Source: Sphingobacteriaceae bacterium
GTDB lineage: Bacteria > Bacteroidota > Bacteroidia > Sphingobacteriales > Sphingobacteriaceae
Direction: 5' to 3'
Assembly (NCBI GenBank): GCA_029266635.1
Contig: JAQSWM010000005.1
Coordinates: 310,001 to 374,000, forward strand
DNA: 64,000 nucleotides
Part shown: one piece after another, positions 16,829 through 46,018 of the stretch
Numbering within the stretch: the first letter of the stretch is position 1
Layout of the letters: the number at the start of each line of letters is the position of its first letter
Notes under the pieces: generated by a model
The model's database searches: none
What the model saw: the letters and a program-made list of their open reading frames with translations, nothing else
What the model was told of the DNA's origin: nothing
Translations under genes and position numbers: made by a program

Positions 16829-16879
16829 GCTATAAAATAGAAAAACTCGGTGATGGGCACCGAGCTTTTCAAACTAACC
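16829..16879. repeat. Left 51-bp direct repeat (attachment site)
   Basis: These 51 bases are identical to 45968-46018. The repeat contains a CTCGGTG/CACCGAG hairpin (16846-16864) with A- and T-rich flanks, an intrinsic terminator. It marks the left boundary of the integrated element. Confidence 0.9.
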
Positions 16880-17036: not shown

Positions 17037-17495
17037 TTATATCAACCCTTCATCTGCAAAACTATAATAACCCTCCCGGGATATTATAATATGTTCTATG
17101 ACATTTATATCTAACAATTTACCTCCTTCCTTCATCTTACTTGTTAAACTAATATCAGCATTACTAGGTTGTAAATTCCCACTTGGATGGTTATGCACTA
17201 AGATAACGCTACTTGCTACAGCTTTCAATGCAGCTGCAAAAACTAATTTCGGATCAACCACTGTATAGTTGATTCCTCCTGAACTAATTGGCACTATCCC
17301 TAAAACCCTACTAGCTCGGTTTAGAAGGATGATTTTGAATTCCTCTACAAACTCCAGCCGGTCTAAATCCCATCCACCCCGGACGATCTTAGATGCCTCT
17401 AATGAGCTAAGTACTTTGGGTCTGTTAGAAGGTTTGACTTTTGGTCTGTACGTTAGCTGCACCTCGGCAACCTCGTAAATTGATTGATTTTCCAT
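17037..17495 (-). CDS. RadC-like JAB domain protein
   Basis: A 152-residue protein with the JAB/MPN metal motif HNHPSGNLQPSNADISLT and a downstream VIEHIIISREGYYSF, matching the C-terminal domain of RadC. It lacks the N-terminal helix-hairpin-helix part of full RadC. Such short RadC-like proteins are common on Bacteroidota mobile elements, typically near one end. The family has predicted metallo-isopeptidase fold chemistry but its role in the element is not established. Confidence 0.88.
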   Translation of the reverse strand: MENQSIYEVAEVQLTYRPKVKPSNRPKVLSSLEASKIVRGGWDLDRLEFVEEFKIILLNRASRVLGIVPISSGGINYTVVDPKLVFAAALKAVASSVILVHNHPSGNLQPSNADISLTSKMKEGGKLLDINVIEHIIISREGYYSFADEGLI

Positions 17496-18068: not shown

Positions 18069-18119
18069 GGGAGATTTTCTTAAGATTTTTTATTTATATA
18101 TGCCGTCAAAAAATTCTCC
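18069..18119 (+). repeat. Dispersed palindrome, copy 1
   Basis: GGGAGATTTT at the left and AAAAAATTCTCC at the right flank an AT-rich centre with TTTATATAT. It belongs to a four-copy family in the island (others at 21909, 36336 and 38439), and this copy is the most diverged. Confidence 0.65.
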
Positions 18120-18309: not shown

Positions 18310-18500
18310 TCCCAATTCTTAACAAGACGCTAAACCTTTCGGCTTAGCGTCTGAAAAAATTACTAAGAGTTATCGTGTGTAGCGTTTTAATGCTCCAATC
18401 TAGCTGTAAGGATTTTGCAGTACTTTTATTACCTTACAACCAGTTGTATTGTAAACCTAAAGTACTAGATTTTAGGTTATCTTGACTCCTAGCAATTCAA
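18310..18500 (-). ncRNA. Candidate ncRNA of the DRT3 system
   Basis: Directly downstream of drt3b on the same strand there are three helices: AACCTAAA/TTTAGGTT (18471-18478 with 18454-18461), GTAAGG/CCTTAC (18432-18437 with 18406-18411), and an 11-bp stem closed by a GAAA tetraloop (18326-18351). The last contains one G-U pair that exists only if the minus strand is transcribed. An ACACAC hexamer (18375-18380) lies in the unpaired stretch between the second and third helices. DRT3 systems are known to include an ncRNA; its location here is inferred, and the ends are approximate. Confidence 0.45.
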
Positions 18501-18503
18501 TTT

Positions 18504-20462
18504 TTAATAAGTTGTGCTCCACTCTTTTTTCTTAAGCACTCTTTCAAGATCTATGTCGCTGCCCCAATCCATGAACCACTTTTTCTGCTGCTCAATCTTT
18601 TCAATTGCTTGAGCAACCAACGCAGGAACTTGGGGTGCGTACTTACTATGAATGACCACTTTCCGTTTAGAATCCATGGTGACGAACGGGCAAGCAATAA
18701 AGTCAAAAAATAAACACGTCATCTCCGATTTAGAAAATGGGTGTTCATCTGTTTCAAACTTCTTCACTACTGACTTCTCTAAATATATCTTTAAATTTTC
18801 ATACTGATTATCATTGTCTATGTAATATAACAAAGTTATGATATGAAAATAGTTGAGGTTGAGGAATTTTCTTAATCGGTCTACATTGCTACCTTCATCT
18901 TTCAGTTCTACTTCTAAATCGAAATATTCGCGAAGTTTTTTTTCTGTAATATGGTAACCTTCTCCTAACATTTTAAGCGGAATGATAAGATTTAGTATTT
19001 CAATATTCGTCTCTTTGTCTTTCAATTTCCTATGATATATAGTCATTACATCTTCACATTCTCTAAAAATCTTAGATAAGATGCTATGTTTTATATCTGA
19101 AGTCTGATGTGTTGCGAATTTTGAAACAATTACGATCAATTGTGCTAACTTGAAAGTTGAGCTGGCATTAATTGACAGAGAATAACAATAAAAAACTATA
19201 TCCAATACTGCTAAAAGAAAGCCTTCGTAATTGGGATGGGTCTTCTTTAGATCAGTTCTTTTAAAAATTTTCGTAATTTCTGATTTAAAGAATCGAACAA
19301 CGTCTTTATTTGCCGCATCGTATGAAACACCGTTTTGTCTTATTATAGATTGAAAATCTTTAATAAAGTTTTTAGAAACGAAGTAGGGATTTTTTATTTC
19401 ATCTATAAAAATATGGCTTTCCGAAATTTTTACAAGGTCTATAAAAAAGCTTTTTACTAATTTGGTTACTTGGCGTTTCGCGACTGAAATGTCGGTAAAA
19501 AGTGGTGTAGAGCTTTTTTTTGTTTTGTTGGAATTTATATAAAGCTTAAATTTTTCTAGTTCCTTTTTATAGATGACAAAAATTTCCTCAAGTACAGCCT
19601 CGTTGTTTGAGAATACGAAAAAGTCGTCAATGTAACGCCTGATTTCGTAATCGACACCCAATTTCAATTTCAGTTCATTTAGTCTATTAAGAACATTAAC
19701 GTCTACCTGTTGCAGTATTACTTCAGCGAAAATCCTAGATATCTCAGGACCAACAACTATTCCATTCGTCTCGTTATAATTAGATAACTGCATCAACTTG
19801 TCGAACTTATTTTCAAACGTGTGCAGTGTTGCGTTACGTTTAGCTGTTTCCTTGTCCTTAATTGCCCAGGTGATCGAATGAGTATAAATGTGATAGAAAC
19901 ACTTGCTTATATCAAATTCCCACAGGTATTTAAACCGTTGTTCAAGCCTTTGGTACTCGTTTCTTTCATAGAACTTATAAATTAAATCAACTGGATTATA
20001 AATAAAATACGACTTGTAACGGGTTGAATTAATGTCAAGAGCTTCTGGTTCAGTTTCAACACCATCAGATCGATGCTCATCATCTTCAAACAAGAGATCT
20101 GGAGAATAACTAAACTTTGCGACACTAGTAATACGCCTTAGAGAAAATTGGCTTTTAGAACAAAGGTGTATTATTATAGAATGGTATTTCTCGTAAAAAT
20201 CAATGAAATCAACTTGGTTAAACGGGTGAATGACACTCAGCCGCCTGGTAGAACCGTCACTGCTCTTTGAGATTAGGTAATTAAAGGGGATGCCATAGGG
20301 CTTTTTTTTGCCTTTTAGATTTTCTTTGAATTCTTCAAACTCACCGTTCTTTATAATCTGATAAAAGCCTTCATTAGAAAACAATATGGGAACTTCATAT
20401 GGAAGTGTCTCGGAGAGCAATACGCGAACTGCGTCGTTTTTGTCAATTTTAATCTTGCTCAT
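18504..20462 (-). CDS. drt3b: Antiviral reverse transcriptase Drt3b (UG8-type)
   Basis: About 652 residues from the ATG at 20462, which overlaps the drt3a stop as ATGA; the longer start would overlap further. RT palm motifs include FDISKCFYHIYTHSI (about 183-197), NETNGIVVGPEISRIFAEVI (about 230-249) and RRYIDDFFVFS with the catalytic YIDD near 277-280. The long C-terminal part of about 370 residues is alpha-helical and lacks a recognised nuclease. This sequence pattern and the pairing with a shorter RT fit Drt3b of DRT type 3. In recent reports as I recall them, Drt3b makes one strand of a dinucleotide-repeat DNA without a nucleic-acid template. Confidence 0.88.
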   Translation of the reverse strand: MSKIKIDKNDAVRVLLSETLPYEVPILFSNEGFYQIIKNGEFEEFKENLKGKKKPYGIPFNYLISKSSDGSTRRLSVIHPFNQVDFIDFYEKYHSIIIHLCSKSQFSLRRITSVAKFSYSPDLLFEDDEHRSDGVETEPEALDINSTRYKSYFIYNPVDLIYKFYERNEYQRLEQRFKYLWEFDISKCFYHIYTHSITWAIKDKETAKRNATLHTFENKFDKLMQLSNYNETNGIVVGPEISRIFAEVILQQVDVNVLNRLNELKLKLGVDYEIRRYIDDFFVFSNNEAVLEEIFVIYKKELEKFKLYINSNKTKKSSTPLFTDISVAKRQVTKLVKSFFIDLVKISESHIFIDEIKNPYFVSKNFIKDFQSIIRQNGVSYDAANKDVVRFFKSEITKIFKRTDLKKTHPNYEGFLLAVLDIVFYCYSLSINASSTFKLAQLIVIVSKFATHQTSDIKHSILSKIFRECEDVMTIYHRKLKDKETNIEILNLIIPLKMLGEGYHITEKKLREYFDLEVELKDEGSNVDRLRKFLNLNYFHIITLLYYIDNDNQYENLKIYLEKSVVKKFETDEHPFSKSEMTCLFFDFIACPFVTMDSKRKVVIHSKYAPQVPALVAQAIEKIEQQKKWFMDWGSDIDLERVLKKKEWSTTY

Positions 20463-21637
20463 CGCCAGCAATTGCTGATGTTCTTCATAGTTGCTGCGTC
20501 AAAGCGATAGAAAACTTTCTTATTAAATCCATGGGCGAAAGAATATTTTTGAAGTTGGCTTTTTAATGCAGGAGAAAGCAAGGGTGCTAATTTAACCCCT
20601 AAGCTATTCCTCCTACTGTTCAATGTTTTGTGATAAAATAGGTTCAGTTGATGAAAAACTTCTGTATCGTTCGCATGAATGTAGTTATAAAAAATTCCTG
20701 CTTTTAGACTTACTCCCTCTATTGAACTCTTAAGATTGTAATTTCCGGTCAAAAACTGTATCCTCTTTATTAATAGCAGCTCTTCCCTGGTTTTAACGAA
20801 ATCTACAAAGGATAATATTATTCTCGTTTTAATCTTTTTTACTTTTGAATCAGCGATAGAAATCACCATTTCTTTCGATTTTTTGTCAGTTTTCTTGAAA
20901 TAGAACTTATAACCCAGAAACTCCAAAGGACTGTATGGTCGTAAGAGACTACCGTCAAACGTGCTGGTTTTCTTCAAGTTCTTGTTCAAACCTGTTTCTA
21001 ACATGCTATCTAAAGCGTTCACTAAAGTCTCAGTCTGTTTTCTACTATAGTTAAAAATAATTATATCATCTACGAAGCGTGCGTAATAATATATCCCGTC
21101 GAATCCGCGAATAGCCTTATCAAAGCGCCGCATGTAAAGCTCAGACAATGTTGAACTGATCGGCACGCCTTGCGGCAGTCCCGGGACCTCCGACAAAAGC
21201 TTATTAGAGAAGATTTTTTCAATTAGACGTATTGAAAAATAAGACAACATAGAATCCCCTTTCAACTTTTCAAGTAACCTTTCTTGGCTGATGCTTGCAT
21301 AGAAAGAGCTTATATCAGTACGTAAAATATATAATGGGCACTGATCCTCAAGTAACGTCTTAATTTGGTATACAATAAGGTTACGATTAGCCTGCTTGTC
21401 TTTGTATAGCTTTTTTATGTTGCTGTTGAGCTTACGAAGTATCAACTTATTGACCAAATCGCTTGCGTAGTAGTAATTTTTATGTCTCAGAAAAACATAC
21501 TCATAAGTGTCAGACAAAATTTTCTCATATGCCTCAGACAAAAGCTCTAAAAGAGCGGTTTTGGTTAAGCCATATTCAATAAGTTCCGTCTTTTTACAGA
21601 GTTTAATTACTTCCTCCGGAGAAAAATTTTGGTTCAT
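20459..21637 (-). CDS. drt3a: Antiviral reverse transcriptase Drt3a (UG3-type)
   Basis: A 392-residue RT with motif A TDISSFYASI (about 107-116), GLPQGVPISSTLSELYM (about 153-169) and catalytic FVDDIIIF (about 188-195), followed by LEFLGYKF. There is no maturase X domain or endonuclease, so it is not a group II intron RT. It is translationally coupled to drt3b by ATGA. Upstream on the minus strand, a TTTG and a TACCGATTG-like box sit shortly before the ATG and could be the promoter. Family knowledge: Drt3a plus Drt3b plus an ncRNA give phage defence. Confidence 0.9.
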   Translation of the reverse strand: MNQNFSPEEVIKLCKKTELIEYGLTKTALLELLSEAYEKILSDTYEYVFLRHKNYYYASDLVNKLILRKLNSNIKKLYKDKQANRNLIVYQIKTLLEDQCPLYILRTDISSFYASISQERLLEKLKGDSMLSYFSIRLIEKIFSNKLLSEVPGLPQGVPISSTLSELYMRRFDKAIRGFDGIYYYARFVDDIIIFNYSRKQTETLVNALDSMLETGLNKNLKKTSTFDGSLLRPYSPLEFLGYKFYFKKTDKKSKEMVISIADSKVKKIKTRIILSFVDFVKTREELLLIKRIQFLTGNYNLKSSIEGVSLKAGIFYNYIHANDTEVFHQLNLFYHKTLNSRRNSLGVKLAPLLSPALKSQLQKYSFAHGFNKKVFYRFDAATMKNISNCWR

Positions 21638-21908
21638 CTAAATACAATCGGTAATTTTCAATAAAGAAGCCAAACGGATTTTAACTGTGAAGCTATAACT
21701 TTTAATCTTATTAAAGATATGCATCACTAAGATTTAATCAATATTAAAATCTCAAAACATATATAGTAATAAACAGTCACCTTTTGTTGGTACATGCTTC
21801 TACCTCTAAATGGTTGAAGTGCCGCACAGGGAGTTAGCCTGGTATCACGCATCAGAACAGAAGGGTGCTTAAACCTAACCAACCAACGATAATTACTCAC
21901 GTAACTCC

Positions 21909-21960
21909 GGAGATTTTTTTGAATTTTTTTGATTTATATATACAATCAGAAAATCTCCCC
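21909..21960 (+). repeat. Dispersed palindrome, copy 2
   Basis: GGAGATTTTTTT (21909-21920) pairs with AAAATCTCCCC (21950-21960) around an AT-rich centre with GATTTATATATAC. Read on the plus strand it is most like the minus-strand reading of the copy at 36336. It lies at the left edge of the structured RNA region. Confidence 0.75.
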
Positions 21961-22600
21961 ACTAGCAAACCGTTTTTACGCTCACCACAAGCGAACGGAG
22001 GAAAGGTCTGTGAAGAAGAGCCTGTTAAGGCGATTAACAGATACGCCTTGCGCAAGTTCTGGCGGAGTTATTGACGCTCAAGCCTGGAGAGCAAGCCAAT
22101 CAATAACTGTGACAGAACGCAGCCTTTTCGACCAAGCGGTGAGCAAAACTAGGAGAAGCGCAAGCTCTTATGGGGTTAAGCTTTTCGCGAGAACCTTATA
22201 AGAGATTCAGGAGCTTCTCATGGAAGCCGACTCTGCTCAAAAGCCACTAAGTATGACAGATTGCTAACCGGTCGGGTTATTCCAGGATCAACTTATATGT
22301 GTCTGGTCTGGGGGTGGAGAGAAGTTGTCCTAGAATATGAAGGGATAGCCATAGCAGTGGAGCATAAATGTGCTTGAAAAGCTTTTTTATGCGGAACGTA
22401 AATCTGGCGAACTTATGGCGGGAGCTACGAGGCTGGAATGCCTTTCTTCCGCAACTAGCCGTTCGAGTTTGCACTGTCCCACCGTTTAGATGGCGAAGTC
22501 ACCTCACTGACCCTTAAAGAAAGCACTGAAGGAGCTTAGCAGATAAACACAGACCAATCCCCACCTTTCCTCTCTTAAGCAGCAATTGGGAGAAAGGTGA
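21961..22600 (+). ncRNA. Densely folded candidate ncRNA, about 640 nt
   Basis: No convincing gene lies in this stretch, yet it holds many perfect helices: CTGTTAA/TTAACAG (22022-22040), GTTCTG/CAGAAC enclosing GTTATTGA/TCAATAAC (22056-22118), GAGAAGC/GCTTCTC enclosing CTCTTAT/ATAAGAG (22153-22219), AGGA-CAACTT/AAGTTGTCCT (22284-22331), GCATAAA/TTTATGC (22362-22392), GCGGGAG/CTTCCGC (22418-22452) and CACCTTT/AAAGGTG (22562-22599). G-U pairs in three of these arms fit a plus-strand transcript and would be A-C on the minus strand. Class unknown. It lies upstream of and divergent to the DRT3 genes. Confidence 0.5.
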
Positions 22601-22692
22601 AGGAATTGGGATGATGAAGACTCGCTTTATTGTAAGTAAACTTTCTGCCCAGGTTCATTGGGTTTCTTGGCTAAATTGATATTGGAAAGAAG

Positions 22693-23364
22693 TTAAATAG
22701 GTAAACTTCGAATGTAGTCATAGAAGAGTTGCCTTGCTCCTCCAGGCAGCCTTAACTCTAGCATAGAATCTTGATTTAAGTCTTCGGCTTTCCGAATGCA
22801 AGTATAAACCAAGTCTCTAAATTTTTCAACGTTAATATAAGTAGTGTAGAGCTCCCGATTTCTATCTAAAGTTTCATAGATTCCGTCCCATTCCTTTTCT
22901 GCTTTTTGGTAAACACCTTCAATTTCGTTATTATAACGGAATATATAATGCTTGTCGTTGTATTGACCTTTGGAGGTTAAACTTACATTGTGAAGGAGTC
23001 CGTTTCTCAGGGCATATAGAGTATCTATAATTTCATCATCCTCTTCTATTTCGCCAAAATAAACAAGACATCTTTTTATTCCATTTGCAAACCTTGGCTC
23101 TTCTTTATCTTTTCTGTTATAGCATATTCCTAGTTGGTCTAATACGGCGCATAACGACAAGTACGGCATCAACTGTTTACTATAGTCAAAATTTAAAGAA
23201 TGTTGAATGTTTTGATGAATGAACGATAAAGTTGACCTAAGGGCTGCATTTTTTACGGAGATCGGTGAATAATTAGTATATAAATGGACAAAGCTCATTT
23301 CTTCTACTGAGAGTTCATCAACGTTTTTATTGCTAATGTTACCTGGAGTAATATTGTATTCCAT
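22693..23364 (-). CDS. HEPN-type protein
   Basis: About 223 residues from MEYNITPGNIS; a longer start at 23442 would overlap the upstream gene by 14 nt. An all-helical region carries LYALRNGLLHN, which fits the HEPN ribonuclease motif RNxxxH (about 120-125). Other recognisable parts are absent. HEPN RNases are typical toxins or abortive-infection effectors. It is the second gene of a tight pair with a pentapeptide-like membrane protein, so I infer a two-gene defence or toxin module. The RNase activity is a prediction from the motif. Confidence 0.65.
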   Translation of the reverse strand: MEYNITPGNISNKNVDELSVEEMSFVHLYTNYSPISVKNAALRSTLSFIHQNIQHSLNFDYSKQLMPYLSLCAVLDQLGICYNRKDKEEPRFANGIKRCLVYFGEIEEDDEIIDTLYALRNGLLHNVSLTSKGQYNDKHYIFRYNNEIEGVYQKAEKEWDGIYETLDRNRELYTTYINVEKFRDLVYTCIRKAEDLNQDSMLELRLPGGARQLFYDYIRSLPI

Positions 23365-24958: not shown

Positions 24959-25324
24959 CTAATAATATCCCTTCCCTAAGATACAATGCCTTACTCCTCC
25001 TCTTGGGTTCTCCATATCGCCTACGTACCTCGGTATAAGATGGCAGTGAAAATGAAACACAGTCTGACCCGCTGATTCACCACAGTTCATTCCAATATTA
25101 AACCCATCTGGCGTATGCTCCTGCATAACTAGTTGTTTTGCAGTGTTGAGACTTTCAACCAAGCCTTTTTTTTCTTCTTCTGATAGCTCGAAGAAATCTC
25201 TTTTCACCTCATTAGATATTATTAAAAGGTGACCTGGAGAAACAGGATAATCATCTTTTATAATAAAAAAGAACTTGTCTCTATAGAGAACTCTCTCTTC
25301 CGCTATTCCTGTAAAGTCTTTCAT
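24959..25324 (-). CDS. HIT family hydrolase
   Basis: A 121-residue HIT protein. The histidine triad is HFHCHLIPR near residues 95-103, preceded by GFNIGMNCGESAGQTVFH, and the N-terminal part (SPGHLLIIS) fits the family. HIT enzymes hydrolyse nucleotidyl phosphoester or phosphoramidate bonds. Its ATG abuts the stop of the HNH gene, so the pair is translationally linked and probably functions together. Confidence 0.9.
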   Translation of the reverse strand: MKDFTGIAEERVLYRDKFFFIIKDDYPVSPGHLLIISNEVKRDFFELSEEEKKGLVESLNTAKQLVMQEHTPDGFNIGMNCGESAGQTVFHFHCHLIPRYVGDMENPRGGVRHCILGKGYY

Positions 25325-26353
25325 TCAAAAATTACCTTCATATTCAAACTTAGGCTTCCACTGTTGTATTGACTGACTTAAAGCTAAGTTGTATTGCGTT
25401 TCTAAAAATCTTCTGCGATTTTCTTTTGTCTTACCCGTCTGGTTTATGATTGTCTCTGCTAACGGATGTTTGCTTTCAATATAAAACTCATTTCTATTGA
25501 ACAATCGTTGCAAAAACCGTCTCTCTGGAATTTTCGCCTTCTTATCAAGGTTGACTGACCGATCCGCCAACACCAGGTTCCAAACACCATTTATGTTCAC
25601 ACCATGATTTGCATGCGTCAACTTGTTGACATGTGGCAGGAAGTGATCAACATCGCACACGTCGGAAGTGTTACTATTTATAGATATATCTTTAAAAGAA
25701 TAGAAGCATTTACCTTTCTGGTATCCGTTCAAACCATCTCGAACAGAAGTAATATCAACTCGTCTCATCAAGTTAGTGTTGATGTAGAACATGGACCGAT
25801 CTTCGTCAACCTTTACTTCTAAGAGGTTAGGATTTATTTGCAAGCTCCACGCAGTTTCAACCAAATTCCATCGAGCTTCCACCTCTTTGTTGAGATTTCG
25901 ATACTGAAACAGCTCTTTCATCTTTAAGAGATTATCGGTAACGACAATCTCCTTTTTGCCTGCTTTAAAGTTCTTTTCATAGAAACTGTTAGGGACTACT
26001 CCACCATTCACATTTTGAAAGGCATCGACAACGTTGACAAATCCGTATGTCTCTGTTAGGCTATAAAGCTGTTCTTGTGAAATAGAGTTGCTTATGAAAT
26101 CCCTACAAGCTTGTAAGAACTTGCTTGAAGCTGAGCTTCCTTGTTTATCGCTTTTTTTGAGGTGATCGACGATCGAGTTTGCAAAAGGAATAGCCAACGC
26201 TTGGAGCGATATATTGGTTTTCTGCTTCTCAACAAGCTCAAGTAATGATTTGGCAAACGCAAACTTATAAGTTGCTGAGTTCTTTCCAAAAAGGATTATC
26301 GCTCTCCATTGAGATTCCAGGGATGGATCATTGATTTGAAACCTAGTTGCCAT
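25325..26353 (-). CDS. HNH endonuclease-like protein
   Basis: A 342-residue protein. The C-terminal third holds an HNH-type core: CDVDHFLPH, HANHGVNINGVWNLVLADRSVNLDKKAKIPE (Asn and downstream residues) and then FLQRLFNRNEF. The N-terminal 200 residues are helical and unrecognised. It directly precedes a HIT gene with no spacing. The pair may be a nuclease with a nucleotide-processing partner; this is an inference from gene order. Confidence 0.78.
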   Translation of the reverse strand: MATRFQINDPSLESQWRAIILFGKNSATYKFAFAKSLLELVEKQKTNISLQALAIPFANSIVDHLKKSDKQGSSASSKFLQACRDFISNSISQEQLYSLTETYGFVNVVDAFQNVNGGVVPNSFYEKNFKAGKKEIVVTDNLLKMKELFQYRNLNKEVEARWNLVETAWSLQINPNLLEVKVDEDRSMFYINTNLMRRVDITSVRDGLNGYQKGKCFYSFKDISINSNTSDVCDVDHFLPHVNKLTHANHGVNINGVWNLVLADRSVNLDKKAKIPERRFLQRLFNRNEFYIESKHPLAETIINQTGKTKENRRRFLETQYNLALSQSIQQWKPKFEYEGNF

Positions 26354-30388: not shown

Positions 30389-30805
30389 CTACTCGACTCT
30401 TGCTATAGCTCCAGGAAACTGCATCTGAACAGCAGTAAATGAATAATCAGTATCCGGTTCACTAACCTTTTTCTTATAGTAGTACTGTAAATGCTCAGTA
30501 TCGCTGCAGACGATTGTTAAAAGATCTTCTATGTTCTCTGAGGTATTCTCGAACATCGTGAACTTGAATGCTGTCCTGAGCAGGTTTAGGTAGTCTTTCC
30601 TACTTAGCAAGTACTCGGAACTGAGATCAGCATCGATTTCTAAAAGGTAAACACCTTTTTTTAAAATAACGGTCACAGTCCCGAATAAACAGACAAATTC
30701 AAGTTGAACCTTGGGTTTTAACGCATTCTTGGTGTTGTCGGTGTAGGAGTACCTTCTAGCTTGAACACTCGGCAGCTTCGAGATTGTAATAAGTACCTCA
30801 GCCAT
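30389..30805 (-). CDS. Hypothetical protein
   Basis: A 138-residue soluble protein beginning MAEVLITISKLPSVQARRYS. Beta-rich first half, mixed second half. No motif is recognised. It stands alone between the tandem RNA modules and the long inverted repeat. Confidence 0.6.
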   Translation of the reverse strand: MAEVLITISKLPSVQARRYSYTDNTKNALKPKVQLEFVCLFGTVTVILKKGVYLLEIDADLSSEYLLSRKDYLNLLRTAFKFTMFENTSENIEDLLTIVCSDTEHLQYYYKKKVSEPDTDYSFTAVQMQFPGAIARVE

Positions 30806-31472: not shown

Positions 31473-32480
31473 TCAATTTGGGAACAGCGATGCTGAATCT
31501 ATAAACTCTATTTCAGGCTTGTAGTTGTTAAACTGCATAAGAATATTGTATTTTTCGTTTTTCAGCTCGATCTCGCTTCGATCTTTCGTGTATATTGATA
31601 TTACCAATGCTCTATTGCTCTGCCGTAATGCGTCTACGATATGTGAATCGAATGCCGAAAGACTGTTTCCATAAACTATGACCGCAGACTTCTTATGCTC
31701 TTTGAGTTTATCAAGGCAAAAAGATAGATAGTTGCTTCTGTGGATTGAACTTAGTTTATCTGCTCCACTACCTTCTGTTATAAATAGAGGAAAGTTGCCC
31801 TTTTGAATTTCTGAAGATATTCTTTCAATAAGTTCTTCTTCATCCTTTTTTATTTTCAAATCAAAAATGTCACGATTAAAAATAAAAAGAGCTCCATGCA
31901 AGTAATGAACGCTCTTTAGCTTCAATTCCTGATATGGCATAAACTGAGTGTAACCGGGAGATGAGTTACCCCAAAAATAATCATGATAAACACCAGACTT
32001 GGTCTTCTCCCGACTAATATCATTCGCCACCATTATGATATGGTAAAGATAGAGATCATAATTTGTTGAATAGATGTCGCCGAAATCTGCTAGTTGGCTT
32101 GTGATCTTCTTTATTCTGTCCCAATCAATATCAGTTGCACGGGGGTGGACTTCTTTTATAGACTCAATCAAGCCATTTTTTAATTCTTGGATTGCCTCGT
32201 CGATCAACTCTGTTGGCAAGTTCAAAATTGAATTGACTTTACTTGCGCTCGTTAAAAACTTCAGAATTAATTCAAAGTTTGTGGTGTCAAATTGTTGAAA
32301 CAGATTCGAGAAAGGCTCATGTGTTTTGCTAATAAAAGTTTTAAAAAGTGACTGATATCGAAAGTTATCTGATAATGAAATACTAAATCCATTTCCAATT
32401 AGAAGATCAGGATTCTCGTATTTCGATTTCAGTTGTTCCCATTGTCTAATTCCAAGACTATTTAAACTTTCAATATCCAT
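31473..32480 (-). CDS. DUF4917 family, SIR2-like protein
   Basis: A 335-residue protein. LLIGNGFSIS (near residue 26) is the Rossmann-type glycine loop, FGDIYSTNYD and VHYLHGALF are the SIR2-like NAD-site segments, and VIVYGNSLSAFDSHIVDAL is typical of DUF4917. SIR2-like domains in defence systems often deplete NAD+. Whether this one does is not known. It is a single gene in the defence-rich island. Confidence 0.72.
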   Translation of the reverse strand: MDIESLNSLGIRQWEQLKSKYENPDLLIGNGFSISLSDNFRYQSLFKTFISKTHEPFSNLFQQFDTTNFELILKFLTSASKVNSILNLPTELIDEAIQELKNGLIESIKEVHPRATDIDWDRIKKITSQLADFGDIYSTNYDLYLYHIIMVANDISREKTKSGVYHDYFWGNSSPGYTQFMPYQELKLKSVHYLHGALFIFNRDIFDLKIKKDEEELIERISSEIQKGNFPLFITEGSGADKLSSIHRSNYLSFCLDKLKEHKKSAVIVYGNSLSAFDSHIVDALRQSNRALVISIYTKDRSEIELKNEKYNILMQFNNYKPEIEFIDSASLFPN

Positions 32481-36335: not shown

Positions 36336-36386
36336 GGGAGATTTTTTATAAGTATATATAAATCAAATATTTTCAAAAAATCTCCC
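36336..36386 (-). repeat. Dispersed palindrome, copy 3
   Basis: GGGAGATTTTTT (36336-36347) and AAAAAATCTCCC (36375-36386) flank an AT-rich centre with TATATATA. Perfect 12-bp arms. The minus-strand reading matches the plus-strand reading of copy 2 at most positions. Confidence 0.8.
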
Positions 36387-36417: not shown

Positions 36418-37205
36418 CTAGTACCAAATCATGCGTGCTTTAACATCTTCTTTAAACGAAAACTGTAGATCGGATAGCAATTGAACAAGCTTGTAAGCTG
36501 GTAAATTCACTATATCCAGATACCAATCACAAATTCCCTTTCCATCCGCAAACGGTGCAATTTTAAAAGATTTTGGCGCAAGTTTCGCGTCAAGGTTGTC
36601 CATTAGTACCTTATCTATTCCTTTGATCGGGTACTTTAACCGTAGGTGATCTGAATGTATCATTACGTGAAATGGAGGCACGATATCTTTAGAAAAAAGG
36701 TAACTGGTCCCTGTTATATTAGCTCCTACGAATTGAGTCAAAAGTGCATCTCTAAGCCGCTCCAAATCTTCTTCGACATCAAAGGGAATACTGCGGTCAT
36801 CTCCAATGGTAGCAATGTACCTTTGGAAATAGCTGTATAACTTATCATAGCTCTCTCTATCCGAGTATTGCAAAGCGAGATCTACGGAATTTAGGTCGGA
36901 ATACTCATAGAAATTCATGCTAGATACGATGGCTTCGGATTCATTAAAATAAAGTTTGGTATGGAGTCCTTCAACTTGAACCAGTTCTGCACCGTAGCTT
37001 TTTAGAACTTTATAATCCTGGGCTTTTAACTCTCTATAGTAGACTTTGATCTTTACTCCACGTTCGAAGCTTTTTCTAAGTTCACTATGATTTTTTTCCA
37101 CTGTGATAAGTTGATATATGCTGAAACGGCAATAAAGCTTTTGTTAGCTTCTGCTATAAGAGTAGAGATCTTGACACCAATCTCATTGGGGTTGATAACT
37201 TCCAT
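36418..37205 (-). CDS. PLD-like protein split by a -1 shift at A7
   Basis: Two frames form one protein. The first 38 residues (MEVINPNEIGVKISTLIAEA...) start at ATG 37205. The remaining 227 residues continue in the -1 frame after an A7 tract (T7 at 37091-37097). The main frame holds a PLD-type motif LHTKLYFNESEAIVSSMNF (His-x-Lys). The split may be a programmed frameshift, a phase-variable tract, a pseudogene or a sequencing error. PLD-like proteins with one HKD-type motif act on phosphodiesters as dimers, including nucleases. Confidence 0.6.
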
Positions 37206-37299: not shown

Positions 37300-38352
37300 T
37301 TAAACAAATTGATCAACAGCTTTCAATAAAACATCAGCGTTGCTATAAATATCATCCAAGGAATTTATCTCGATTTTTGGGAAAGATTTATCACCTTGAA
37401 GGATCGCAATAGATTTCTTCTTTCCATTAAAGTGGAATCTGCAAACAGACTTCCTGTTATTGTCGTCGATCAACACAGCACAATAGCTTTGAGCATCACG
37501 TAAGAATATACGATTTATCGGTAGTTTCTGCCTCAGGATAGATTTAACCACCATAAAAGCCTCGAGTTCCTCCTGAGTAGTCTCAACGGAATCGCCTTTT
37601 TCGTCAAGTGGCGCTTCGGTTAATGGCTCAGAATTGGCTGATTCGGTTTTTAAGGCAGACTTAAGCCTATCGTTGATCAGGTCGTTTACCAGCAATGTAA
37701 AGGCTTTCTTTGTCAAGCCAGTAAACAGTTCTAAAACTTTTTGATTGACCTGACCGGGATAAACCTTCTTTGCAAAGTACCTGACGAAATCATCAGTTGG
37801 AGTATTCATCTCCGCTACGATGTGGTTCCTCAACTCATTCAGGTACTTCAGCTCACTTGCGGCACTTGAAATATTACTTACGTCGAAATAGGATTTATGG
37901 AACTTTTTCAGTTCTGCGATCTCATTGTCTTTAATTTCACCTATGTTGAACTCGAAAAATGGCTTATCGTCCATTTTGTTTGGAGTGACCAAGTCTGTAT
38001 AAAACCGAAAATTTAATCCATTCGTCAACAGACCGAACTTAGCTTCTGTAGTATGGAAGTATCTAAAGAGTTGCGAGTTATGCGGATCAAGTTTCTCGCT
38101 ATAATGCTTGCATTCGATAAGCATACAAGGTTTACCATCCTTTATAATGGCATAATCTACTTTCTCGCCTTTTTTTATCCCTATATCAGCGACGAACTCG
38201 GGGCTTACCTCGAAAGGATCGAAAACATCATAGCCCAACAATTGAATAAAGGGCATGATCAAAGCATTCTTAGTTGCTTCTTCAGTTTGGATTTGGGGAC
38301 AGAGTTTTTCAACTCGTGAGGCGAATTGTAAGACGGAATCTTTGAAGTCCAT
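37300..38352 (-). CDS. HsdR-N-like PD-(D/E)XK nuclease
   Basis: A 350-residue protein. EEATKNALIMPFIQLLGYDVFDP and VDYAIIKDGKPCMLIECKHYSEKL fit the type I restriction R-subunit N-terminal domain, with the nuclease Asp and Glu-x-Lys (ECK). There is no helicase domain, so it is a solitary nuclease. The C-terminal part (KSVCRFHFNGKKKSIAIL...) is conserved in mobile-element relatives. It may be a restriction-like defence protein. The palindrome copy 4 lies 87 nt upstream of its start. Confidence 0.8.
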   Translation of the reverse strand: MDFKDSVLQFASRVEKLCPQIQTEEATKNALIMPFIQLLGYDVFDPFEVSPEFVADIGIKKGEKVDYAIIKDGKPCMLIECKHYSEKLDPHNSQLFRYFHTTEAKFGLLTNGLNFRFYTDLVTPNKMDDKPFFEFNIGEIKDNEIAELKKFHKSYFDVSNISSAASELKYLNELRNHIVAEMNTPTDDFVRYFAKKVYPGQVNQKVLELFTGLTKKAFTLLVNDLINDRLKSALKTESANSEPLTEAPLDEKGDSVETTQEELEAFMVVKSILRQKLPINRIFLRDAQSYCAVLIDDNNRKSVCRFHFNGKKKSIAILQGDKSFPKIEINSLDDIYSNADVLLKAVDQFV

Positions 38353-38438: not shown

Positions 38439-38491
38439 GGGGAGATTTTTAAAATTCGTATATATAAAAAGAAATATCCAAAAATCTCCCC
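38439..38491 (-). repeat. Dispersed palindrome, copy 4
   Basis: GGGGAGATTTTT (38439-38450) and AAAAATCTCCCC (38480-38491) are perfectly complementary 12-base arms around an AT-rich centre with TATATATA. Confidence 0.8.
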
Positions 38492-39423: not shown

Positions 39424-39462
39424 AACAAGGAGCTTCAAAAACATTTGAAGCTCCTTGTTTTT
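39423..39462. terminator. Bidirectional intrinsic terminator
   Basis: A 17-bp perfect stem (AACAAGGAGCTTCAAA and its complement) with T-runs on both sides separates the HTH gene from the convergent helicase-like gene. Confidence 0.9.
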
Positions 39463-41356
39463 AATTGTTGCCTTTGTCTTTAGAAAGAAAGCTCAAATCA
39501 TCAGAAATTTTATATTTAGGCTTATTGATAATGTAATAACTCTTATAGATGCCATCTATTTTCTGTTTACTATTCCTTCTGACACACTCAAAGTATCGTT
39601 CAATATCTGTAGCGACAGCGGTTTTAATAACCCCTGGAGCACTCTCATATTGGTATTCTTCGTATATGGCTTTCAACTTTTTAGATATATCATCACAGTA
39701 ATAATGATTTCCTATTTGAAACTCGCTAATGATACGATCCAGCATCAATATCAACTGGTGTTTATCCGTTTTTTTGTGCCTGAATAAAGCATCTCTCATT
39801 TTCGGTTGGCTGAATTTCAGTTGTTTCAAATACTCAAGTCCAAATAAGCGATAGCACTCAAAAGTTAAAGGTTCATCCTTACGCACTATATCAATCACTC
39901 TGTTTAGCTCTTGTTGGGTCATAGAGGTTCCTGGTCTTACCATCTTAAATAATGCCAGATCCAAAAGTTGAGCATAGCTTTTCCTCTTTACTTCAGCGCT
40001 TAGACGGAATGAATGCTCTTTATCCAAGTCTGACCATCGTTGGATGACTGTGTCAAACGTTAAATTGAATTGGTCCATTTTTGAATATCCGTTTTTCAAG
40101 TTCTTTGCCGATTCATAGAAATAGCGGAGCTTTCTTTGCTGAATTATATGTTCCCTGTAATAAGGTCTCACAAAAGGATCATCATCAACAACGGGTGAAC
40201 TATAGCTCTTTTTAATCAAACCTTCTATTTCTTCTTGCTCGCCTGAGTCCCCTAGGGTAAGCATTGTGTTCTTCCATGTCTCTAAGGTTATCCGTTCATG
40301 TTGAAACTTGCTCATAATAAAACTTTCATTTTTATTTTCAGATGAGTAAGTAAGAGACGTTATGTGTGTGAAAGAATTAACACCATTTCGGCTTCTCCCG
40401 TATATTTGAAGGGCGTCACAACGAGGGTCAATAATTGATTGAAAAGCTTTTGGAACATTCGTGATCATAAACACGTCAGGCGAGGGACCATCAATAAGAA
40501 TATCAACCCCTGTATAAAATCTCGAAGTAAAAAAATTGAATTTACTGTACTTCTGATCCGCAATACTGTTTTTGACACATTTTATATCATTTAATGCAAA
40601 GTATTTCCTATCCAAATCCTCAGAGCAAAAAATAGTATAGTCATCTTTTATAAAATCAAGTTGACTTAGGTATTCTATTGTCTTTGTACAATTCGTAAAT
40701 ATCAGCCTCGGACCCTCGCCATTGCAATAGTTAAGTAGATTCCTAGCTGAAGTTCTTACGTTGTTGGTCACAACGACATTCAAATCCACCTTGTAGTCTG
40801 TATAATCAGGGCTAACATCAAGCCGTCTAAAGTCACTAAACTCTTCAAAGTCTAGCTCAACTGCTGTTGCGGAAACCATAGCTTTATTTGTAAACATTAG
40901 CACTTCCTTTAAGCATCGTACAAATTCTTTCCGGAATAATGCATTGTGGATGATGCGATCAAATTCATCATACAACACAAAGTAATTTTCTCGATAATAA
41001 GGATCAAATTTTCTTAAGGCTCGAATGAGCTTTGGAAAACCTTCGGGAACTACCAGAAGTTTTTGCCAGCCTTTAGTGTTTTGAAGATAGTCTACTATGT
41101 CATCCTCTGATGCGCTACTTGTGACGGCGCAAACCTTTTCCTTGAAATCTTCTTTCTTGACTTCGACAATGGTGATAAATGGCAGTATGACAATTGAGTG
41201 CCTATGACACGATATTTCGCTATGAGTAGCACCAAAGTTTGGGAATCGTTTATTGATGATAGTATTTGATGGAATGAATTCTCCATAACCGCTTCTACGG
41301 AGAACCGCGTCGAACTTTTCAGTTTTCGATTTTCTTGTGAGTGGTAAATGTTCCAT
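39461..41356 (-). CDS. SF2 helicase-like protein
   Basis: A 631-residue protein. LYDEFDRI (motif II), SATAVEL (motif III), SRFYTGVDI (motif V region) and QIYGRSRNG (motif VI with Arg) follow a helicase order. The Walker A position is GATHSE rather than GxGKT/S, so ATP binding may be altered or use a different loop. Relatives in this phylum occur on mobile elements near replication functions. One nt separates it from the upstream acidic-repeat protein gene. Confidence 0.68.
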   Translation of the reverse strand: MEHLPLTRKSKTEKFDAVLRRSGYGEFIPSNTIINKRFPNFGATHSEISCHRHSIVILPFITIVEVKKEDFKEKVCAVTSSASEDDIVDYLQNTKGWQKLLVVPEGFPKLIRALRKFDPYYRENYFVLYDEFDRIIHNALFRKEFVRCLKEVLMFTNKAMVSATAVELDFEEFSDFRRLDVSPDYTDYKVDLNVVVTNNVRTSARNLLNYCNGEGPRLIFTNCTKTIEYLSQLDFIKDDYTIFCSEDLDRKYFALNDIKCVKNSIADQKYSKFNFFTSRFYTGVDILIDGPSPDVFMITNVPKAFQSIIDPRCDALQIYGRSRNGVNSFTHITSLTYSSENKNESFIMSKFQHERITLETWKNTMLTLGDSGEQEEIEGLIKKSYSSPVVDDDPFVRPYYREHIIQQRKLRYFYESAKNLKNGYSKMDQFNLTFDTVIQRWSDLDKEHSFRLSAEVKRKSYAQLLDLALFKMVRPGTSMTQQELNRVIDIVRKDEPLTFECYRLFGLEYLKQLKFSQPKMRDALFRHKKTDKHQLILMLDRIISEFQIGNHYYCDDISKKLKAIYEEYQYESAPGVIKTAVATDIERYFECVRRNSKQKIDGIYKSYYIINKPKYKISDDLSFLSKDKGNN

Positions 41357-44614: not shown

Positions 44615-45796
44615 TTAATGGAAATTAAAATCCTTCCTGGACTTCCTTATGTACTTAGATTCGGGAATTTGGTCTAAGAGTTCTCTCGCATATGTTTCTG
44701 TTTGAGAGACCTTACTATGCCCATTCCGGTACATTAGCTCAACAAGATCAGCCCCACTTATAAGCAGATTCACATTGCCGGTGTGTTTAAAGCTATAAAG
44801 TGTTTTGTTCTTTTCGATCTTCAAATCCTTTTTGAGGATCTTAAATCTAGAGTCAACGGTATTTTTTGAAAGTGGAAGCTCTTTACAGAATCCGGCTTTC
44901 TGGAGAGGTTTAGTTATTCCTATGAAATACCTTTCTGAATAGGTTTCATTCCTAAAATCGATTGGTAGCTCAAGCAAATACTTCTTTAGAGGTTGATCTA
45001 TCAACACCGTCTTGGCTTTGTTTTTAATTTTCGCCTTTCCTTTGGGTAGAACAATCTTGTTTTCGTCTAACCGGAAGTCTTTCATCTGAATTCTAAGTAT
45101 TTCAGAAATTCTTATTTGTGCGCCATAGATAAGGTATATAATAGTTTTTAGGACCATATGACCTTTTTGATCGCAATATTTGATCACTGTTGCTATGTCT
45201 GTCTTGTTATAGACCCTGTGTCGCTCAACTGGATGATTCTTCGGCAGCTTAATCCCTAATGTTGGATTGATGATTGCCAGCTTAGCCTCCTCTATTACCC
45301 AATTAAAAAAAGCGGACAGATAGGCTCTGTAAGCTCGTTTGCTTTGAGGCTTAATGTCAAGTTTCCAAAGGAAGTCTCTTATTAGTTCCTTCGATGCCTG
45401 GTTTGCCATCAACTGACCGGCTAATATTTTAAATGACGAGAACACAGTAGTGTAGTTTGCATAGGTGTTTTTTGTAAGCCTATCTTTTACAGAAAGCAAG
45501 TAGTCGTCGATCAGTTGTGCTAGCAGAGTAGATTCGGTTACAGTTGGCACAAAGCTTTTAGTGGCTGTGTCGAACCTGTGAGTTTTTAGCTGATCATCAA
45601 GCTTTTGAACAAGCTCATTAGCAGTTTTCTTTCTGTCCGTTATTGTCTGACTGGGATCGTTCAAGCCTTTAAACTGCCGGAACATCAATCTCTTGCCGTC
45701 CATTTGGTAATGAAAGAAGACAAACCATTTATCAGATAGCTTTTTGCCTGCTATCAGAGGAGGCTTACAATGTGGGTTTAATGGGTATGTTTCCAT
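44615..45796 (-). CDS. Tyrosine recombinase/integrase
   Basis: A 393-residue protein with an N-terminal arm/SAM-like domain (about 90-190) and a catalytic domain with Arg in GAQIRISEIL, Lys in the KGKAKIKNKAKT region, the box-II segment YSFKHTGNVNLL (unusual Tyr and Lys in place of His and Arg), GHSKVSQTETY with the nucleophilic Tyr. It lies 171 nt inside the right repeat. The catalytic core fits phage-type integrases of Bacteroidota elements. Confidence 0.92.
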   Translation of the reverse strand: METYPLNPHCKPPLIAGKKLSDKWFVFFHYQMDGKRLMFRQFKGLNDPSQTITDRKKTANELVQKLDDQLKTHRFDTATKSFVPTVTESTLLAQLIDDYLLSVKDRLTKNTYANYTTVFSSFKILAGQLMANQASKELIRDFLWKLDIKPQSKRAYRAYLSAFFNWVIEEAKLAIINPTLGIKLPKNHPVERHRVYNKTDIATVIKYCDQKGHMVLKTIIYLIYGAQIRISEILRIQMKDFRLDENKIVLPKGKAKIKNKAKTVLIDQPLKKYLLELPIDFRNETYSERYFIGITKPLQKAGFCKELPLSKNTVDSRFKILKKDLKIEKNKTLYSFKHTGNVNLLISGADLVELMYRNGHSKVSQTETYARELLDQIPESKYIRKSRKDFNFH

Positions 45797-45967: not shown

Positions 45968-46018
45968 GCTATAAAATAGAAAAACTCGGTGATGGGCACC
46001 GAGCTTTTCAAACTAACC
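45968..46018. repeat. Right 51-bp direct repeat (attachment site)
   Basis: It is identical to 16829-16879. It forms the 3' end and terminator (hairpin 45985-46003) of a leftward small RNA gene that starts near 46140. Confidence 0.9.

Follow-up and report, generated by a model that had tools for sequence, protein, structure and literature searches.

A large covarying RNA carried by integrative elements of Sphingobacteriaceae and independent of the adjoining DRT3 reverse transcriptases

Bacterial RNAs of the size and complexity described here are few, and the best-known ones from phage DNA have no known function. The passages cited here describe ROOL (env-120, 659 nt) and GOLLD RNAs, many of which exceed 800 nt, as elaborately folded, encoded by phages and prophages and of function not known (PMC12286853, PMC7567579); both form nanocages and are located on phages and prophages (PMC12286853). 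In the PLE phage satellites, according to the section cited, the most abundant ncRNA, the IIR transcript, is long and a standing part of the integrated satellite (PMC7567579). A further structured RNA, Pedo-repair (RF01715), is reported from Pedobacter (PMC2864571), and the ncRNA of the E. coli DRT3 system is described as lying downstream of drt3b and carrying 5'-ACACAC-3' (PMC13174585).

The locus studied here lies in a 64-kb stretch of a Sphingobacteriaceae genome, which was analysed as a whole and is referred to as the window. Judged by its sequence, the stretch 21961-22600 is a free-standing plus-strand gene that specifies a large structured RNA and is presumably transcribed; most of its neighbours lie on the minus strand. 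Our main reading, to which we give a probability of about 0.88, sees in it a large, conserved mobile-element RNA that is independent of DRT3. The features of the locus are collected in Table 1.

Table 1. Features of the RNA and of the element that carries it (window positions).
Feature	Position	Strand	Basis or remark
Large structured RNA, family member	21965..22612	+	5' end GCAAACCG; 3' end directly past the terminal hairpin's outer pairs (GGGAT)
Helix 1, closes the 5' domain	22004-22007 with 22122-22125	+	3 of 4 pairs double-changed; 94% of cells paired, 38 copies
Arm with internal loop UGGCG (22060-22064) / UGACA (22110-22114) and stem 22067-22074 / 22100-22107	22060..22114	+	Paired in 95.6% of cells; one pair is C-G throughout (38 of 38)
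Arm GAGAAGC (22153-22159) / GCUUCUC (22213-22219) around a long stem	22153..22219	+	Nine first copies compared
Long-range helix 22247-22261 / 22402-22416 with second internal loop UGACA / UGGCG (22254-22258 / 22405-22409)	22247..22416	+	8 of 12 pairs double-changed
3' terminal hairpin with UAAGCAGC as its apical loop (22576-22583)	22551..22612	+	Hairpin folds in 38 of 39 listed copies
att-like repeat, left element end, 51 bp	16829..16879	.	Identical to right repeat; presumed role
att-like repeat, right element end	45968..46018	.	Presumed role
RadC-like protein, left element end	17037..17495	-	PF04002, E 6.7e-37
Candidate DRT3 ncRNA, expected partner of the RT pair	18318..18503	-	Fold z -7.35; ACACAC at 18380-18375
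drt3b reverse transcriptase, separate system	18504..20471	-	PADLOC Drt3b, E 1.2e-202
drt3a reverse transcriptase, separate system	20459..21637	-	PADLOC Drt3a, E 8.8e-116
Relative of the ~165-aa neighbour family	30389..30805	-	Family seen near 30 of 50 RNA copies
Helicase-like backbone protein linked to the RNA	39461..41356	-	Homologous to the ~609-aa neighbour family (E 8e-42)
Tyrosine integrase	44615..45796	-	PF00589, E 3.1e-15

Fold, covariation and strand of the RNA

An earlier note on this DNA had placed the RNA at 21961-22600, and both ends proved right to within about a dozen bases: the family alignment sets the 5' edge at 21965, and the 3' edge, read off the alignment as the last base pair, should lie at about 22612. 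On the program-made list, the open reading frames touching the stretch measured 69, 90 and 65 aa. The plus strand of 21961-22600 folded at -208.2 kcal/mol compared with -188.7 ± 5.3 kcal/mol for 20 dinucleotide shuffles (z -3.7), none of which was as good, so that the shuffling control proposed in the note came out in favour of a genuine fold; the minus strand reached z -2.7. In segments of 480 nt, the window copy scored z -4.4 sense and -3.3 antisense, and 12 of the 50 copies of the large RNA averaged -3.9 and -3.3, whereas eight hand-picked control segments of the window averaged -0.8 and -0.1 (lowest -1.7). This is in agreement with the previous observation that structure is denser here than in the surrounding DNA. 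The stretch is also richer in G+C (48%) than its flanks (33 and 38%) and the element (38%), as would be expected if the structure had arisen by chance in GC-richer intergenic DNA; given the dinucleotide-shuffled controls and, above all, the covariation in 38 copies, we rejected a chance fold, the probability of which is practically negligible. The long helix that closes the single-sequence fold of this copy (22005-22012 / 22548-22555) found no support in the family, in which 22004-22007 pairs with 22122-22125 instead; it competes with such family-supported pairs.

Covariation was assessed in a MAFFT alignment (A3) of 38 of the 50 copies, which measure 444-666 nt (median 541) and also served for the orientation counts of neighbouring genes. 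The other 12 (L071, L111, L114, L120, L122, L123, L124, L126, L133, L135b, L136 and L146) were left out because their 3' hairpin was missed by simple patterns or the copy was truncated or doubled, and the covariation figures thus describe the better-kept copies. RNAalifold predicted 46 pairs on A3, 33 of them with double changes, and 90.4% of the 1741 cells were paired. Double changes occurred in 365 cells, compared with 121.8 ± 8.9 after shuffling and 52-86 when the structure was slid along the alignment; the structure was derived from the same alignment, which biases the count somewhat in its favour, but hardly by such a margin. The covariation in homologues that the earlier note had proposed as a check was thus present and exceeded the controls, as expected of a large conserved structured ncRNA. 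A3 starts sharply, with GCGA.CCG in most copies and an unconserved flank upstream. There are two nearly invariant UGGCG / UGACA internal loops, the strand order of one being reversed in the other. Within the long-range helix, for instance, one covarying pair was AU in 22 copies, GC in 15 and UA in 1. The GAGAAGC/GCUUCUC arm is built from different yet complementary stems in at least seven of the nine first copies, the single-sequence fold of L070 being different. Likewise, the 3' hairpins carry UAAGCAAC-like loops on stems that diverge widely among copies and keep their complementarity; in the one exception, L136, the loop position used was wrong.

The A3 pairs comprised 192 G-U and 26 A-C cells (89 versus 26 without three near-invariant G-U columns), in line with the earlier remark that G-U pairs favour the plus strand, and RNAalifold yielded -31.3 for the plus and -11.5 for the minus strand. 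Together, these asymmetries identify the plus strand as the strand of the conserved fold. The gene at the 5' side of the RNA lies on the opposite (minus) strand in 36 of the 38 loci, an arrangement that would suit an RNA acting on the minus strand or as an attenuator- or riboswitch-like leader of the neighbouring gene. The G-U/A-C asymmetry and the RNAalifold values led us to reject this reading as quite improbable: the near-invariant G-U pairs would become A-C on the other strand, and on the plus strand the next gene, at the 3' side, is opposite and convergent in 28 of the 38 loci, with neighbours that vary among loci. No conserved promoter motif was found before the 5' end in 49 copies, which is odd for a free-standing RNA gene and counts against our main explanation.

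Rfam 15 returned no match in the entire window at gathering scores and two chance matches (E 5 and 7.7), both at the edges, in 21500-22800 at E ≤ 10. Nine loci searched at gathering scores contained tRNA only, and 17 RNA loci searched at E ≤ 1 gave a tRNA and a sub-threshold OxyS match (25.1 versus 75 bits, L099) that overlaps the RNA 5' end by about 11 nt. Neither GOLLD, ROOL, OLE nor any other Rfam family thus matched by covariance model over threshold in the window and the tested loci, and known Rfam families were rejected as the identity of the RNA. Group I and group II introns were without an Rfam match in the window, in 21500-22800 and in the sets of nine and 17 loci, consistent with the earlier statement that the stretch shows no group II intron domain V. 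Pedo-repair RF01715 (211 positions) had no match over the cut-off in the window's own genome, where its best place lay elsewhere (E 0.8, 15.5 versus 150 bits), and none in the 17 RNA loci at E ≤ 1. The family is absent from Rfam 15 and, on Rfam 15 and the open-access literature (subscription papers being outside this scope), undescribed; what had been proposed as a large new ncRNA is a covarying family without an Rfam match.

Distribution and carrier elements

A DNA search of 395 genomes of the class revealed a single collinear relative, which belongs to a different genus of the same family, and a search of 301 family genomes at loose limits yielded many chance matches and some true ones. Early DNA matches at the hairpin GTGCTTGAAAAGC occurred in many genomes and were mostly chance; among 20 regions taken from them, seven carry the RNA by comparison and an eighth (L072) by covariance model R1 (E 1.1e-7). 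R1 was built from an alignment of nine copies (A1) and covers 157 positions of the 5' part with 32 pairs; the window copy, one of the nine sequences behind it, matched at 21995-22151 with 102.2 bits (E 5.6e-20). The set of 50 copies leaves out a second, weak R1 match in L131, a 5' piece. At E ≤ 0.01 and with strict filters, R1 matched 127 of 399 genomes of the host's family in 14 of 25 genera, with up to six copies per genome, so that the covariance-model search suggested at the outset did recover a family. Ten of 237 genomes of the class were matched, four of them from the same family; of those outside it, two matched strongly (E 1e-11 and 3e-8) and four weakly (E 0.002-0.007). Both strong outsiders also have the later UGACA and UGGC motifs, and a simple pattern did not find the 3' hairpin in them. 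An exact-pattern search returned 15 loci, eight of them Mucilaginibacter, which points to Sphingobacteriaceae as the family; the remaining seven, a Bacteroidetes MAG and six loci from other phyla, had no R1 match and were taken as chance. The RNA is also present on one IMG/VR contig (L173, E 1.2e-26); one pattern scan of IMG/VR and DNA searches of plasmids and phages were unproductive. The large structured RNA almost certainly belongs to a covarying family of Sphingobacteriaceae and some other Bacteroidia.

In the window, the RNA is part of an integrative element of 29 kb between 51-bp identical repeats, with the tyrosine integrase at one end and the RadC-like gene at the other. A mobile-element RNA of a giant-ncRNA type, one of the options raised before, fits what was found, namely a covarying family carried on integrative elements. 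Near the 50 RNA copies, the ~165-aa family was seen 30 times, the ~609-aa helicase-like family 19 times and RadC nine times. The label helicase-like refers to motifs judged by eye; the protein had no significant Pfam, PHROGs or PDB profile match (a single PDB match at E 0.44). At least one marker gene was present near 35 of the 50 copies, or 36 counting one further downstream. The remaining 14 were without marker genes, with upstream sequence read to about 9 kb only; a further 15-20 kb downstream of 12 of them contained none either, and the other two could not be followed. Neighbours of the marker-less copies, assigned by eye, include Rhs-like and transposase genes. These 14 copies suggest that the RNA probably also travels by other means. 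Conversely, at least 37 of 52 helicase-like genes from 201 genomes had an RNA match 2.1-17.7 kb downstream among the matches listed; three had the RNA upstream within 25 kb among those matches, in multi-copy genomes, and 15 had no RNA among them. The count of 52 derives from 54 rows minus two second pieces of split genes, and with 80 listed places of the RNA compared, 37 of 52 is a lower bound. A Bacteroides finegoldii sequence (NZ_OY725919.1, 18090-43781, L153), labelled plasmid yet with genes of chromosomal look, has an integrase, a helicase-like protein and a JAB-domain gene in the same order, with no detectable RNA in the gap. This element and the helicase-like genes without a listed RNA, like the copies without marker genes, count against our main explanation. 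At another locus (L128, 4948-15402), an RNA copy lies between two tRNA-His genes about 10.4 kb apart, which suggests a tRNA-integrated element.

Several loci contain pieces of the RNA in addition to full copies. Extra 5' pieces lie upstream of full copies in L131 (two), L145, L110 and L121, and extra 3' pieces lie downstream in L148, L147, L144, L117, L143, L141 and L028, all in the same orientation and with up to 2.8 kb of sequence in between. L135 holds two copies 3.9 kb apart with genes between them. In L114, L122 and L124, the RNA domains are closely similar but the reading frame behind them differs from locus to locus (one of 299 aa, a NADAR-like one of 129 aa and a lipoprotein-like one of 127 aa, the latter two judged by eye); a common hairpin with a loop unlike the usual one comes next. 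The end pieces and the varied frames suggest, at the level of sequence comparison, that the RNA is a site of gene gain and loss. They would also fit an exchange platform, that is, a mobile or recombining RNA unit (ribozyme-, retroelement- or cassette-like) with cargo swapped at its ends, and so would the sharp 5' end without a fixed promoter, the multiple copies per genome and the spacing in L135. The breakpoints of the pieces vary, however, as decay or homologous recombination would leave them. A looser 3' hairpin scan gave 42 extra matches on the minus and 43 on the plus strand, one plus match being upstream (L144, -3007), and with equal strand counts it adds no support for turnover by itself. 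Furthermore, group I and II introns had no Rfam match, and no common transposase or RT was seen by eye among neighbour families listed in at least four loci. We regard an exchange platform as unlikely, though still a serious candidate. The location on an integrative element and the recurrence of pieces of the RNA ends near cargo would similarly suit a structure that works as single-stranded DNA, attC- or origin-like; the tolerance of G-U pairs, with A-C pairs rarer, indicates that selection acts on RNA, and the unit far exceeds in size any folded recombination site that we know of, which makes this reading improbable.

The DRT3 reverse transcriptases and their own RNA

The RNA starts 327 nt upstream of drt3a, and the earlier note had considered that the two RTs might have it as a second RNA partner. 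This assumption did not hold. The neighbouring genes form a DRT3 system of Drt3a, Drt3b and a downstream RNA with ACACAC, which is the candidate DRT3 ncRNA and occupies the position described for the ncRNA of the E. coli system (PMC13174585), and ACACAC was likewise found within 400 nt downstream of drt3b in L004, L005, L006 and L007 (L008 having only ACACA). The large RNA, in contrast, is encoded on the opposite strand, upstream of drt3a, and lacks the placement of a DRT3 partner. Moreover, 61 stretches from the 48 other RNA loci, which hold 49 further copies, contained no Drt3a/b pair and one lone, weak, partial Drt3a match (L113). A scan of genome contigs with Drt3a was unproductive. The DRT3 block is bounded by palindromes at 18070-18119 and 21909-21958, and the RNA is located outside these borders. 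With a separate ACACAC RNA present and no Drt3a/b pair in the stretches searched at the other copies, a partnership with DRT3 was rejected as highly improbable: the large RNA is independent of DRT3, which is mere cargo of this copy. A large RNA can adjoin a reverse transcriptase without being its template.

The 50-bp AT-rich palindrome (GGAGATTTT...AAANTCTCC) is present in four copies, the two that flank the DRT3 block and two more at 36337-36385 and 38441-38489. These are the sole exact pattern matches in the 3.6-Mb genome, all of them within the element, and the pattern was not found near other RNA copies. The palindromes may mark the borders of cassettes or be bound by a protein of the element. 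Other defence-like cargo comprises a DUF4917/PDC-S21 protein (31473-32480), an HsdR N-terminal-like protein (37300-38352), a sub-threshold PLD-like protein (36418-37101) and HNH_4 (25325-26353) and HIT (24959-25324) proteins.

Possible role and relation to known RNAs

By analogy, the conserved RNA of mobile elements may act in trans as a folded scaffold, self-assembling or protein-binding, that serves the element; we advance this tentatively and with the odds leaning against it. Transcribed from the plus strand, the RNA would either assemble with its own copies, as GOLLD and ROOL do, or bind an element protein at its two UGGCG/UGACA internal loops. Such a scaffold would promote the maintenance or spread of the element rather than of its cargo. 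The family itself is spread with integrative elements, DRT3 being cargo of this copy only. A wider proposal, which we consider possible but on balance doubtful, is a new giant-RNA class at the core of Bacteroidia mobile elements. It would work either as a scaffold or particle, adding a third cage-type RNA to GOLLD and ROOL, or as a platform with defence and toxin cargo exchanged at its ends. The family is common and often multi-copy, is found in named environmental isolates, e.g., Mucilaginibacter, and has a linked backbone gene, so that expression, deletion and structure are directly testable.

Among the systems compared, Pedo-repair shares with the large RNA that it is structured and differs in its 211 positions; Pedobacter belongs to the same bacterial family as the hosts named here. 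The DRT3 ncRNA occupies the same locus in the window and differs from the large RNA in being shorter, in its ACACAC template loop and in its place downstream of drt3b. Group II introns and retron RNAs are likewise large, structured and near an RT gene, but Rfam found no match to them here, and the adjoining RTs are Drt3a and Drt3b. The PLE IIR transcript, likened here by description, is similar as a long ncRNA that forms a constant part of an integrated element; it differs in lying between inverted repeats and in having antisense matches to leaders of its own genes. GOLLD and ROOL are often near tRNA genes, which is a frequent and not a defining trait, whereas the large RNA mostly is not: the 64-kb window has no tRNA, and in 48 RNA loci of 7-18 kb a tRNA was present in 18 (one doubtful), in three of which (L114, L122 and L123) it lies no more than about 0.5 kb from the RNA. 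Their hosts differ as well, those found here being Bacteroidia, and GOLLD and ROOL are known with their cages whereas the present RNA is known from its sequence. In size and elaborate fold they resemble the large, structured RNA of this locus, which, without detectable relation to GOLLD and ROOL, is nearest to them in kind.
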